Virus record (IMG/VR): IMGVR_UViG_3300010885_041437
Coordinates: 1 to 41,403 of that record
Length of the DNA stretch: 41,403 bases
Source: a virus
Strand: one strand, 5' to 3'
Below, one piece after another: positions 24,881 through 40,298 of the stretch (the first letter of the stretch is position 1; every line of letters starts with the position of its first letter). Below the pieces are notes generated by a model, which was given only the letters and a program-made list of their open reading frames with translations, had not been told where the DNA came from and did not search any database. The position numbers were made by a program, and so were the translations under genes.

Positions 24881-24954
24881 TTGCGGGAACCGGATTTGAA
24901 CCGGCGACCTCCGGGGTATGAGCCCAGCGCGCTACCAGACTGCGCCATCCCACG
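24881..24954 (-). tRNA. tRNA-Met (CAU), initiator-type
   Basis: The minus strand folds into a complete cloverleaf of 74 nt. The acceptor CGTGGGA pairs with TCCCGCA except at position 1-72 (C-A), the mismatch characteristic of bacterial initiator tRNA. The D-stem is GCGC/GCGC with an AGTCTGGTA loop. The anticodon stem CTGGG/CCCGG gives three consecutive G:C pairs (29-31:39-41), a second initiator hallmark, with loop CTCATAC and anticodon CAU. The T-arm is GCCGG-TTCAAAT-CCGGT. The discriminator is A. CCA is not encoded. The D-stem pair 11-24 is C-G rather than the A-U of the E. coli initiator. It lies between the MuF-like and DUF2213-like genes, flanked by hairpins. Confidence 0.9.
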
Positions 24955-32213: not shown

Positions 32214-32667
32214 CCGTGACACGTTCTATCAGTCTGTCGAGCTCCTCGTCGCTCAGGCCCTGGAGCACCTGGCCGGCGTGCTGAACGTGGACGGGCTCGG
32301 CGGGGTCGCCGGTGTGGATCAGGCGCACAGGCTCGCGAGGCACACCCAGCTCGACAAGGGCGCGGGCGGCAGACACCCGAGCAGCCGCTGGGGCTTTTTT
32401 GTCGCGGGCCACCTCGACCAGCGTGGCGACGCCTGCGGGCGCAGCTGCGACGATCGACTGGCGGATCGCGCCTGCTGCGTCGTCGGTCAGCACCCGGATG
32501 AACGCGGCGACGTGGGGTTTTGCTGCGGTGATGCGGACCGAGTTGTAGTTGGTGTTCAGGTCCTTTGCCAAGGCCCGCAGAGACATGCCCCGGAACCGGC
32601 CCTCGGCGACCGCGAGCTCGTGCTCGGTCAGCAGCTGGTCATCCATTCGAAGCCCCATCACTGGCAT
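32188..32667 (-). CDS. Terminase small subunit-like protein
   Basis: The 159-residue product has an N-terminal helix-turn-helix-like part (QLLTEHELAVAEGRFRGMSL, RALAKDLNTNYNSVRITAA) followed by a helical region with VARDKKAPAAARVSAARALV and a C-terminal tail, the layout of small terminase and phBC6A51-like proteins. Such proteins recognise the packaging site. ATG 32667 has AGG six bases upstream. ATG 32658 and 32646 are possible, the last overlapping the Mom-like stop by eight bases. Identification is by pattern and location near TerL, from which it is separated by three genes. Confidence 0.6.
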   Translation of the reverse strand: MPVMGLRMDDQLLTEHELAVAEGRFRGMSLRALAKDLNTNYNSVRITAAKPHVAAFIRVLTDDAAGAIRQSIVAAAPAGVATLVEVARDKKAPAAARVSAARALVELGVPREPVRLIHTGDPAEPVHVQHAGQVLQGLSDEELDRLIERVTVDDSTPAR

Positions 32668-33349
32668 CGCCAGCCTCTGCAGGGTGGAGCGTCAGGGTCG
32701 GATCTGCCCCGCCTTTCGCTGGTTGGACACCAGCGCCCCTCTCAGGGCTAACGCGCTTCGGGTATGGCTGGGCCAGTGGTAGCACCTGGATCTTCATCTG
32801 GCAATCGAGCGGCATCAGATACCTGTGTTTTCCTGGCAACTCGACCCTGACAGAACCGGCAGGCAACTCCTGGCGATTTTTTCCGAAATTGTGGCCTGTA
32901 TATGCCCGCTTGTTTAGCCGTTTTCCGTTCAATCGGAATTCGTGCGACTTTTCAGTCGTGCCAGCATAAATCCAGTTTGTAGCCTGGTATATTCCACCAT
33001 GATGGCCCTGCACCGGGTCAGCGAATGAGACGACCATTCTTAGCCCAGGAGATGATTGCTTTAAAAACCTAAGAGAAATTGCCAGTATCCTAGATACCTG
33101 AACCTCGTGGCTTGAAAGCGCGACCCTAACCAGCTCGCAGCATTCTGTTAACTGCAATCCATACGGCTTTCCCAAATCCTTGTTCGCGCCCCATGTAAAT
33201 ATAACTACTCCGATAAATGCATCGTTTTCCCATACGCCTATTTTTACAAGCTTGCCGACAGGCACTGTCTTGGTATAATGCCATTTTTTGCAGGCATATG
33301 CTGCTGCATCGTGTGTCGCCCAGTCTACCCTCACATTACTTTTTGCCAT
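32639..33349 (-). CDS. Mom-like DNA adenine modification protein
   Basis: The 236-residue product matches the phage Mu Mom family. Conserved stretches include ACKKWHYTKTVPVGKLVKIG, then WENDAFIGVVIFTWGANKDL, GLQLTECCELVRVALSSHEV, LRMVVSFADPVQGHHGGIYQ and ATNWIYAGTTEKSHEF, and the ending GKHRYLMPLDCQ. Mom proteins belong to the GNAT fold and convert adenine to a methylcarbamoyl derivative, protecting phage DNA from restriction. The last 40 residues (after LPLAQPYPK) are Pro/Gly/Ala-rich and probably not part of the enzyme. The coding DNA is clearly richer in A+T than its neighbours, and Mu mom is likewise atypical in composition. It overlaps the ParB-like gene by 14 bases, so it is translationally linked to it. 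Confidence 0.85.
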   Translation of the reverse strand: MAKSNVRVDWATHDAAAYACKKWHYTKTVPVGKLVKIGVWENDAFIGVVIFTWGANKDLGKPYGLQLTECCELVRVALSSHEVQVSRILAISLRFLKQSSPGLRMVVSFADPVQGHHGGIYQATNWIYAGTTEKSHEFRLNGKRLNKRAYTGHNFGKNRQELPAGSVRVELPGKHRYLMPLDCQMKIQVLPLAQPYPKRVSPERGAGVQPAKGGADPTLTLHPAEAGDASDGASNG

Positions 33350-33899
33350 AACTTGCGCTCCATTGAAATTGGTGGGCGCATGAAGGGCATGTAACTGACT
33401 TCGATGCTACTTCATCAAGCGATGGCTGTTCATCTGCTGTGCCTGGCTTAAAGTCGGGCTCGGCGACCATCGCAGCGATGTCTGCGTCGTCCCAGCCAAT
33501 GCCGTGGGCGTCGTCGCCGAGGCCCCGCAGGATCTCGACCAGCTCGTCGTCGTCCCAGGGGCTCGCCTTGGTCAGCTGGTTGTCGGCGAGCGTGAGACGG
33601 ATGGCGGTGGCGTCGTCGACCTCCACGAACCGCACAGGCACGAGGCCAGGCTTGGGGGCGTCGGACAGCTGCCACGTCGGGTCCGCTGCGATGGCCCGCA
33701 GCGCCGCGAGCCGCCGGCCGTGGCCTGCAATCACCCGGCGGTCAGACCTGCGGGCGACGATCGGCGCCGTCCACACCGACGAGGCAATCAGCGCCTCGAG
33801 CTCAGCGACACCCGCCTCGTCGTGGATCACCGGGTTCCGGTCCCACGGTTTGAGCTGCTCGACGTGCAGCCACTCGGCGGCGGCGGTTGCTTTCGTCAC
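33336..33899 (-). CDS. ParB-like nuclease/CTPase-domain protein with C-terminal zinc ribbon
   Basis: The product has 187 residues from GTG 33899, with AGGAGGG upstream. The N-terminal domain follows the ParB/sulfiredoxin pattern: LHVEQLKPWDRNPVIHDEAG, then VIAGHGRRLAALRAI carrying the GHGR core, and VRFVEVDDATAIRLTLADNQ. The C-terminal part has SVTCPSCAHQFQWSASYGKK with one CxxC. ParB-domain proteins of this kind commonly accompany phage DNA modification genes. The Cys pair beside a Mom gene also recalls the zinc protein Com, which activates mom translation in Mu, but the evidence for that role is only positional. The last 40 codons are A+T-rich, unlike the rest, so the gene may be a chimera. 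Confidence 0.75.
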   Translation of the reverse strand: MTKATAAAEWLHVEQLKPWDRNPVIHDEAGVAELEALIASSVWTAPIVARRSDRRVIAGHGRRLAALRAIAADPTWQLSDAPKPGLVPVRFVEVDDATAIRLTLADNQLTKASPWDDDELVEILRGLGDDAHGIGWDDADIAAMVAEPDFKPGTADEQPSLDEVASKSVTCPSCAHQFQWSASYGKK

Positions 33900-33949: not shown

Positions 33950-34563
33950 CCCGGCGTCGAGAGTCGGAACCCCAGCGCCCACAGACCGACGCAGACCGCC
34001 TCGGCGCCGTGCTCGTCGATGGGCCTCACAGGCTGCACGAGCCCGAGCTCGACGTGGTAGCGGCTACCAGGCGCCTGTCGGTCCTCGACCGCTGCTACCG
34101 CCGTCGTAGCGCAAGCGTCGGCCGGTGTGCCGGTGCGCAGGCCGAGCACCTGCCCCCGCCAGTCGTTCGGGGCGGGCTCGGAGGTGCTGACGACGCAGCC
34201 TCGAGCGCGCGCCCAGTGTTTGACCGCGCCTGCTGCCTCGACGAGCGTTCGGAATCCTGCGTTGAAGCCCTGGAACGGCCGCAGCAGCTCGCCAACGAAG
34301 TCGCCCTGGTAGCTGGGTGCGATGGCGAGCAAGCCGAACAGACACCCGGAGCTGACGGTCACGAGCTCTTGGCCTGGCTGCCACAGTCGAGCGTGCTTTC
34401 CCTCGTAGCTCAGCACCCAGCGCACCGATGGGCGGCCGGTGTGGGCCTCGACGTCGACCGCAGCCAGGCCGCCAGCGATGTCCCCGGGGTCGTGGGCGAG
34501 CACCGACATCCGGGCGAACCGGGGCGGCGGGAGGAGGCGGAGGGTTTCGCGGGTGATGGTCAT
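33946..34563 (-). CDS. RuvC-like Holliday junction resolvase
   Basis: The 205-residue product begins MTITRETLRLLPPPRF and has motif I VLAHDPGDIAGGLAAVDV, with Asp 25. The central part has GELLRPFQGFNAGFRTLVEA followed by HWARARGCVVSTSEPAPNDW and QVLGLRTGTPADACATTAV. The C-terminal DEHGAEAVCVGLWALGF is the RuvC-fold acid cluster with its ADALAIA-like helix. Such resolvases cut branched DNA before packaging. ATG 34563 lies at the left edge of the repeat region. The Shine-Dalgarno sequence is weak (AGAGAG). Confidence 0.75.
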   Translation of the reverse strand: MTITRETLRLLPPPRFARMSVLAHDPGDIAGGLAAVDVEAHTGRPSVRWVLSYEGKHARLWQPGQELVTVSSGCLFGLLAIAPSYQGDFVGELLRPFQGFNAGFRTLVEAAGAVKHWARARGCVVSTSEPAPNDWRGQVLGLRTGTPADACATTAVAAVEDRQAPGSRYHVELGLVQPVRPIDEHGAEAVCVGLWALGFRLSTPG

Positions 34564-34580: not shown

Positions 34581-34868
34581 GGACCGCTTGGACCGCTTGT
34601 GGACCGTATACGATCGACAAAGCGGTCCAACGGTTCTCGGGGTTAAATGCCGCTCGGTTTGGGACTGGACCGCTTCGAGGGGTAGAAGTGCCGATCTTTT
34701 GCGTCGCGTGCCGGGATCGCGGGGTGAGAGTCATCCCCAAGGGCCTTTAGAATTCTCATCTAGATCGCGTGTTTTTGATAGGTAAGCGGTCCTTAGCTTG
34801 ACGGGGCCTAGCAGATCGCCGGACCGCTTCATCAAAACAAAGCGGTCCAGAAGCGGTCCAAGCGGTCC
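34581..34868. repeat. Iteron-like repeat array AAGCGGTCC, putative origin or operator region
   Basis: The 9-mer GGACCGCTT (or its complement AAGCGGTCC) occurs nine times exactly: direct at 34581, 34590, 34667 and 34821, and reverse at 34620, 34784, 34840, 34851 and 34860. A degenerate copy (GGACCGTAT) lies at 34601. The copies at 34581/34590 and 34851/34860 are directly adjacent, and 34821-34848 forms an inverted pair around a short A-rich loop. The core between 34745 and 34785 is A+T-rich (GAATTCTCATCTAGATC, GTTTTTGATA). It lies between the RuvC-like gene and the end of the VapE-like helicase gene and contains no gene. This resembles a replication origin or a multi-site operator. Confidence 0.7.
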
Positions 34869-34872
34869 GCGC

Positions 34873-36396
34873 TCAGAGCGGCATCCGCCAGACGTGGACC
34901 TTCCTGGTGCCTCGGTTCTCCCGTGTGTTTAGGCAACCGAGAGCCCTCAAAATGGCCCCAACGCGGTGTGCTGAGGGGGCGTCCTGGGCGCGCAGATCCA
35001 GTTGGATACCGCTCAAAATCTCCCCGATTTCGAAGGGCTGGCCGCGTCGGGTTCCGTCGCTCATCCACTCGTGAACTTTGCCGGTCCAAGGGTCTTCTTG
35101 GCTGTGCTCGGAGGCGATTTCCGCGAGGCATCGGGACTCAGCGGAATCGAAGTGCCACCGCTCACCGCCGTCGTAGCGAATGACGGCTTCCGCCCACAGT
35201 TGATCGCGATCTTCGGTGAGCGCGGCGAGGTCGATGGATCCGACCGAAACAGGCCAGTACCGGGCCGCGCCGGTGGGATCGTTGAGCAGCCGCTCGTTGT
35301 TGTCGGTGGCTGCGAAGACCATCTGGCGGGGGTGGCTGGTGACGACGCGGCCAAAGTGCGCGCGGTAGCGGTCGTCAGGCTGGTCGATGAAGGCCTTGAT
35401 CTCCTCGGCCGTCCGGCTGTCGAACATCTGCTTGACCTCGGGGATCTCGTAGATCCAGACGCCCTGGACCTGCGCCATCCCGTCCTTCGAGCGGAGGTCC
35501 AAGCGGCTGCGGGAGTACCAGTGCCCCCCGAGGATCTCCAGCGCCTTCGACTTGCCGGCGTTCTGGTCACCCAACAGCAGCAGCGCGGACTTGACCTGAC
35601 ACCCCGGGTTCATCACGCGGGCGACGGCGCTGATCATCCACCGCTGACCGATGAGCTGGAGGAGGTCGCGGTGGCCGTCGTGGATGGCCCGCGCCTGCAT
35701 GTAGCCGGACAGCAGCGACGGCAGCCGGGTCTTCCGGTCCCACTTCAGCGTCCGCAGGTACTCGCGGACGGGGTGGTAGCTGTTGGCCCGACCGACGTGG
35801 CGCATGGCCTCGTGGACGGTGCGGCTGGCGGCGTTGATCCCGTAGGTCTCGGCCATCCAGACGGCGGCGCTTGTGGGGCTGTCGTCGTGGATCGGCTCGT
35901 CGTCGATTTCCACGTCGCCGCTGAACTCGTTCAGGCGGATGCGGTCGCGCCACCTGGTGTCGAGTTCGAAGATCCGGGCGTAGTTGATGAGCGTGGCGGT
36001 CGCCTTCGGGTGCTGGCCCCCGGTGCGTTCGAGCCGGTTCCAGACGCCGATCTCCCGCTGGTCGGCCTGGGTGTCCTTGTCGACCAGGCGGAGGTTCGGC
36101 CTCGCCTTGGCCTTGGCCTTGTCGGCGGCGTCGTTCTGGGCCATGAGCAGCACGTTGGCCCGCTGAACCCACTCGCGGCTGACGTCCTTCAAGCGCCCGA
36201 TGAGGAATAGGTAGCTCTCGTGCGTGACTACCTCGACGGCGTCGACGTTCGCGCAGTTGCGCAGGTACTTGTCCCAGGTCCTCTGGGCCTTCTTGACGTT
36301 GGCTTCGCTCGGGGTGTCCTTGGCGGCCTCGGCGATCTCGACGAGGTGCCGGAGCCTGTCGATCGGGTCGGTGATCTCCGTCCGCTGGGCACTCAT
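34873..36396 (-). CDS. VapE-like replicative helicase (AAA+, SF3 type)
   Basis: The product has 507 residues from ATG 36396, overlapping the stop of the preceding gene in ATGA. The longer frame to 36456 lies inside that gene. The N-terminal half is helical and charged. The VapE domain follows: LLLLGDQNAGKSKALEILGG with Walker A at 276-283, then QGVWIYEIPEVKQMFDSRTA (Walker B near 313-320) and HPRQMVFAATDNNERLLNDP with a sensor-like Asn. A GAARYWPVSVGSIDL segment ends the core. VapE proteins act as phage replication helicases near the origin. Its gene ends directly at the iteron array. Confidence 0.8.
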   Translation of the reverse strand: MSAQRTEITDPIDRLRHLVEIAEAAKDTPSEANVKKAQRTWDKYLRNCANVDAVEVVTHESYLFLIGRLKDVSREWVQRANVLLMAQNDAADKAKAKARPNLRLVDKDTQADQREIGVWNRLERTGGQHPKATATLINYARIFELDTRWRDRIRLNEFSGDVEIDDEPIHDDSPTSAAVWMAETYGINAASRTVHEAMRHVGRANSYHPVREYLRTLKWDRKTRLPSLLSGYMQARAIHDGHRDLLQLIGQRWMISAVARVMNPGCQVKSALLLLGDQNAGKSKALEILGGHWYSRSRLDLRSKDGMAQVQGVWIYEIPEVKQMFDSRTAEEIKAFIDQPDDRYRAHFGRVVTSHPRQMVFAATDNNERLLNDPTGAARYWPVSVGSIDLAALTEDRDQLWAEAVIRYDGGERWHFDSAESRCLAEIASEHSQEDPWTGKVHEWMSDGTRRGQPFEIGEILSGIQLDLRAQDAPSAHRVGAILRALGCLNTRENRGTRKVHVWRMPL

Positions 36397-40269: not shown

Positions 40270-40298
40270 GGTTTAGCGGCTAGGCGTTGACAGCGCAA
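40270..40298 (-). promoter_or_regulatory. Leftward promoter of the divergent control region (TTGCGC-N17-TAAACC)
   Basis: On the minus strand TTGCGC (40298-40293) and TAAACC (40275-40270) are 17 bases apart, with the ATG at 40251, 18 bases after the -10. Its -35 touches the -35 of the rightward promoter end to end, so the two polymerases compete for the same DNA. Confidence 0.65.

Follow-up and report, generated by a model that had tools for sequence, protein, structure and literature searches.

The repeat array at positions 34581-34868 of this IMG/VR virus record is very probably a replication origin bound by the phage's own VapE-like helicase, which would act as a self-loading initiator. The joint reading is drawn from comparison of sequences, and the array is taken for an origin because of its position, its dyad layout and AT-rich core, the covariation of repeat bases with helicase residues in relatives, the predicted winged helix of the helicase and the parallels with SaPI and PICI elements. 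Points that weigh against it include a core of only 45% AT and a GC skew that lends no support. In the record itself, a repeat that had gone unrecognised becomes a specific and testable origin.

The array and its gene setting

The window analysed is the whole record, 41,403 bases of 71% GC in which almost every gene is on the minus strand. It carries genes for terminase, portal, head morphogenesis, sheath and tape measure proteins of a contractile-tailed phage and is therefore a phage and not a PICI, a satellite being a small element without capsid and tail genes of its own. A DNA search of phages gave no near match to the record, and a peptide-pattern search gave zero close relatives of its helicase or of the 205-aa protein encoded downstream of the array. 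GC skew, suggested earlier as a check on the origin, tracks the one-sided gene orientation with no inflection at the array; it is uninformative, neither supporting an origin there nor relocating it. A Mom-like DNA modification gene at 32639-33349 adjoins the ParB-like gene and is about 54% GC inside the 71% GC genome, and this region looks like a recent acquisition. A tRNA-Met gene is predicted at 24881-24954, on the minus strand, inside the head gene region. At 40287 (+), 39086 (-) and 14395 (-) there is a promoter-like pair made up of TTGAC and, about 17-20 bp further on, GTAAAC or GTTAAC; two of the three sit ahead of early genes.

With the helicase stop at 34873 and the ATG of the next gene at 34563, the array fills the intergenic gap, beginning 5 bp past the helicase stop, directly 3' of the proposed initiator, and leaving 18 bp before the downstream gene, which runs in the same direction. 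The initial annotation had placed both genes correctly against the array and had named the upstream one correctly as VapE-like (PF05272, 207 bits). Its label for the downstream gene, RuvC-like, gained no support from Pfam or PHROGs, the motifs being no more than suggestive by eye. Its count of nine exact copies of a 9-mer, AAGCGGTCC, and one degenerate copy, GGACCGTAT, with 2 mismatches, was borne out (Table 1). Zero exact copies lie outside 34581-34868 in the whole record, in which about 0.5 copies would be expected by chance from base composition at 71% GC, and a control search of the record with the reversed pattern of AAGCGGTCC gave 0 matches. DnaA boxes were represented by weak 2-mismatch matches only.

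The order of sites from the helicase outward is + + + - + [118 bp] - + - - -. The array is thus a mirror-symmetric dyad of 5+5 sites with 118-bp spacing between the halves, an order missed by the earlier description of two tandem pairs and one inverted pair. Sums of mirror pairs about the array centre are 279, 279, 278, 279, and 269, so that four of five pairs match within 1 bp. When sites were placed at random in 20,000 trials, with at least four pairs agreeing to within 1 bp as the criterion, the simulated P was 0.0005 including the degenerate copy; for the nine exact sites alone (three mirror pairs) it was 0.018. The two sets of sites flank a region that is AT-rich in relative terms, as had been noted from the letters: the inner sites enclose DNA of 45% AT against a record-wide 29%, and the 40-mer richest in AT anywhere in the record (34746-34785, 68% AT) lies mostly in the core, its last two bases overlapping iteron 5.

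Table 1. Coordinates of the array, its sites and the neighbouring genes
Feature	Position	Strand	Slot or basis
VapE-like replicative helicase, proposed initiator	34873..36396	-	likely ATG 36396; PF05272 207 bits; PHROG DNA helicase
Helicase C-terminal winged-helix domain, proposed iteron reader	34873..35151	-	AlphaFold2 model; covariation in relatives
Predicted recognition helix in the C-terminal domain	~34942-34980	-	
Iteron 1, AAGCGGTCC, outermost on helicase side	34860..34868	+	slot -40
Iteron 2, tandem with iteron 1	34851..34859	+	slot -31
Iteron 3	34840..34848	+	slot -20
Iteron 4, sole reversed site of helicase-side half	34821..34829	-	slot 0
Iteron 5, inner site of helicase-side half	34784..34792	+	slot +36
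Core between half-arrays, presumed melting region	34676..34783	.	AT content; core AT enrichment in relatives
Iteron 6, inner site of far half	34667..34675	-	slot +46, mirrored
Iteron 7, sole reversed site of far half	34620..34628	+	slot 0
Iteron 8, degenerate GGACCGTAT, mirror partner of iteron 3	34601..34609	-	slot ~-20
Iteron 9	34590..34598	-	slot -31, mirrored
Iteron 10	34581..34589	-	slot -40, mirrored
Next gene 3' of array, 205 aa	33946..34563	-	without family match; ATG at 34563
ParB-like gene	33336-33899		~0.7 kb from array

Position and layout of arrays in other phages

When viral contigs were first searched for the repeat in tandem, many coding repeats came back besides arrays. The 9-mer alone was dropped as a marker, most repeat-bearing matches being coding repeats in AT-rich genomes, and one match (L055) was set aside as chance, since it falls within the coding sequence for a winged-helix protein that is O-like by eye. 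Non-coding arrays of mixed orientation were found adjoining DUF5906 helicases (L051, L138, L141, and L104) and an AAA_25 helicase (L064), and bacterial genomes including Kaistia soli (L181), Methylobacterium variabile (L172) and others carry such arrays beside helicase genes. In a Solirubrobacteraceae sequence (L211:950-1186), exact AAGCGGTCC copies are read in frame as part of the C-terminal tail of what by eye is a DUF3631-helicase-like protein, so an origin array can occupy the end of a helicase gene. Two Ruegeria contigs (L176 and L151) both end within a perfect tandem AAGCGGTCC run, as if assembly broke there. Short tandem AAGCGGTCC arrays with a 12-bp period, a different spacing type, occur at L036, L052, L044, L028, L037, and L056, the first of these about 1.4 kb past the 3' end of an AAA_25 helicase.

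Position was then assessed at loci chosen by helicase similarity, 80 with DUF5906 (75 non-redundant) and 80 with VapE (61 non-redundant). The VapE query was led by the record's own helicase; the DUF5906 query alignment came from array-bearing loci, with matches ranked by protein similarity and not by arrays. A tiling of 500-bp segments covered -2500 to +2250 relative to the helicase stop, and an array was called where the most frequent 8-mer had at least 5 copies. Arrays were present at offset 0 in 78% of the 75 DUF5906 loci and at offset +250 in 50% of the 61 VapE loci, only half of the latter reaching the repeat threshold. Adjacent segments gave 3-56% and the remaining offsets 0-1% in these two families. 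RecA-type AAA_25 phage helicases (L385-L464) also have arrays at their 3' ends, in 35-40% of 66 loci at offsets -250 and 0 and in 0-5% away from these. Judged across these loci, which include many unrelated phages, the location of the array just 3' of the helicase is no coincidence. In Pseudomonas VapE phages a small gene separates helicase from array.

The arrangement of sites is also shared. From the outside inward, the slots lie at -40, -30, -20, a reversed site at 0, then +35, +44, and +53, followed by the core and the mirror image. Among the 160 half-arrays of DUF5906 and VapE loci with exactly one reversed site, 546 of 582 sites occupy six slots, the slots having been picked by eye on the same data with the record's array left out. 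The record's half-arrays, [-40,-31,-20,+36] and [-40,-31,+46], fall on this layout, which random halves match at 4e-5. The commonest spacing between repeats across loci is 9 bp, and median core length in relatives is 117 bp vs 118 in the record. Core AT exceeds locus AT in both families (41.0% vs 37.1%, P = 0.0003, for DUF5906; 48.7% vs 41.0%, P = 1e-10, for VapE).

The sequence of the repeat is not shared in this way. Consensus sequences at DUF5906 loci vary by phage and include TGTCCAACC, TGCCCCACC, GGTCCAAGC, TGTCCTAGC, TGTCAGACC, and more; that of the record is GGTCCAAGC, equal to tandem AAGCGGTCC. Pseudomonas VapE phages have TGTCCCAC and TGTCCTAC. The nearest relatives carry arrays in the same region with different repeats, Marinobacter phage PS3 with GGTCACCCC, Pseudomonas phage LPPA36 with TGTCCCAC and a further locus (L305) with TGCCACA. 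The initial annotation had proposed, as a check, a search of related phages for conservation of the repeat at the same place; position and architecture are conserved there, but the repeat itself is not, diverging together with the DNA-binding domain of the helicase.

Helicase residues, repeat bases and the probable binder

The record's helicase belongs by its PF05272 match to a family that includes self-loading initiators and resembles the solved VapE-like helicase PDB 7pds (E=7.5e-38). Its C-terminal 92 residues, folded alone, give a predicted winged helix with mean pLDDT 81 (AlphaFold2, 18 sequences). The full-length model is poor, with mean pLDDT 49, and only the separately refolded domain was used. 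A Foldseek search returned only generic winged-helix and other matches, none at E <= 0.001.

Covariation was measured at 50 DUF5906 loci whose helicases are <80% identical, each helicase column being tested with overall identity as covariate; this correction for kinship is approximate and not tree-based. Repeat registers were fixed by hand ahead of the test and short alignment rows were left out. Column 419 (L221 numbering) was the sole column to pass the family-wise permutation test, no permutation reaching the observed value, with partial Mantel correlations of 0.515 for similarity of the whole repeat and 0.767 for base 8. C at base 8 accompanies Thr419 in 29/29 loci and other residues in 3/21 (Fisher 7e-11). 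Base 6 covaries with columns 436 and 437 (P = 0.002, DUF5906). All three columns are within the C-terminal domain, whose columns jointly covary above the rest of the helicase (P = 0.001), and the aligned place of column 419 is, by eye, the predicted recognition helix in the record's helicase. In Pseudomonas VapE phages the position that follows GW[R/K] falls in the corresponding segment of the domain; there Lys pairs with TCCTA in 12/12 and Arg pairs with TCCCA in 35/35, an association that reflects few events because these phages are closely related; base 6 is implicated in both families. The C-terminal winged helix thus appears to read the repeats. As no close VapE relative was found to carry the record's repeat, the covariation is measured in relatives and then transferred to the record.

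These data bear on who binds the array. A true origin at which another protein, either a small one of the phage or a factor of the host, binds the iterons and recruits the helicase would account for the presence of a GGTCCAAG-type repeat beside helicases of differing ATPase families (DUF5906, AAA_25, and DUF3631), which could share a common binder, and the case for the helicase itself is built from sequence comparison. Such a third protein does not, however, predict that residues and bases covary, and they do so in the C-terminal domain even after overall helicase similarity is allowed for, while beyond the C-terminal columns no helicase column passes the family-wise test. The wide variation of the repeat between phages also makes a poor fit to a conserved host factor. 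Binding by a third protein is accordingly considered unlikely, and the VapE-like protein is the best candidate binder, ahead of the small neighbouring proteins.

Functions other than replication fare worse. The array could be an operator for the downstream gene or an early-late switch, an option also raised in the initial annotation: it lies just ahead of a co-directional gene in the record, and iteron arrays are able to serve also as operators. The switch is disfavoured because the downstream gene changes among phages, sorting into 27 or more unrelated clusters across 56 loci (approximate counts, since genes were picked by a simple reading-frame rule) and running in the opposite direction in 12/56. 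A fixed dyad with a core of about 117 bp and a tie to the helicase would likewise be unexpected for operators, and this option is very improbable. Less credible again, to the point of being barely worth entertaining, is the idea that the ParB-like protein uses the array as its partition site (centromere). The gene of this protein is close by, but 0/136 array-bearing or helicase loci encode a relative of that protein while the array layout persists, and a ParB-parS partition locus was rejected on this lack of linkage. An origin bound by a phage initiator, as first proposed from the letters, is supported and fits the evidence as a whole.

Proposed mechanism and relation to known origins

As a self-loading initiator, the VapE-like helicase encoded just ahead of the array would bind the 9-bp sites through its C-terminal winged helix, five on either flank of the core and mirrored in orientation. 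A pair of helicase assemblies, probably hexamers, would then face each other across the core, the AT-rich core would melt and forks would depart from it in opposite directions. Binding in this phage, double assembly, core melting and a bidirectional start are all inferred.

More tentatively, and with slightly less confidence than would be needed to favour it, the initiator helicases of several unrelated ATPase families in tailed phages may share one modular origin, in which the helicase carries a fused winged-helix reader, with about twelve 9-bp dyad slots, head-to-head loading and a drifting residue-base code in which Thr419 would go with C at base 8 and residues 434-437 with base 6. Slot layout was measured in the DUF5906 and VapE families, and position alone in AAA_25. 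To our knowledge, only a minority of sequenced phages have a known origin, and the layout could offer a sequence-only means to locate them beside VapE and DUF5906 helicases. The helicase and array of each phage would form a natural binding pair for studying how ring helicases load themselves, and the covarying residues open the specificity code to direct testing with natural variants. Fixed dyad slots, their spread among tailed phages and a residue-base code were undescribed in the literature searched, which covered few subscription papers and is weak evidence of absence. A literature search for AAGCGGTCC or its reverse complement gave thousands of chance matches, none relevant among the matches listed.

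Phage P4 alpha is likewise a helicase-type initiator that binds short iterons through a domain of its own. Unlike the record's helicase, it is a primase-helicase fusion and uses two separated sites, with ori/crr, and we know of no layout at P4 ori similar to the dyad described here. The lambda origin, as in the record, has iterons beside an AT-rich region in the replication module, but its initiator, lambda O, lacks helicase activity, and the iterons are one-directional and within the O gene.

The closest parallels are with mobile elements. SCCmec Cch2 binds its iterons by its C-terminal domain (PMC7581432). In the same source, the Rep helicases of SaPIs are described as binding, by the C-terminal domain, iterons directly downstream of their own gene, and seem to bind as two hexamers. 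As in these Rep-ori systems, the origin in the record comes right after the helicase gene, with short iterons and the C-terminal domain as presumed reader, and the helicase is similar in sequence to 7pds. In contrast to them, the record is a complete tailed phage, neither satellite nor cassette, and has ten sites in a strict dyad with one reversed per half, where SCCmec Cch2 has three 5-nt iterons. For E. coli PICIs, PMC6092414 reports that an AT-rich region with one iteron set on each side is present at every origin and that a pri-rep-ori segment drives plasmid maintenance. The iteron sequences of the record differ from those of Gram-negative PICI origins, and dyad slots are not described for PICIs in the passages drawn on here (PMC6092414). 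By analogy with the SaPI and PICI rep-ori modules, the origin of the record would work as they do, and a helicase gene followed by an iteron origin is a known kind of arrangement.
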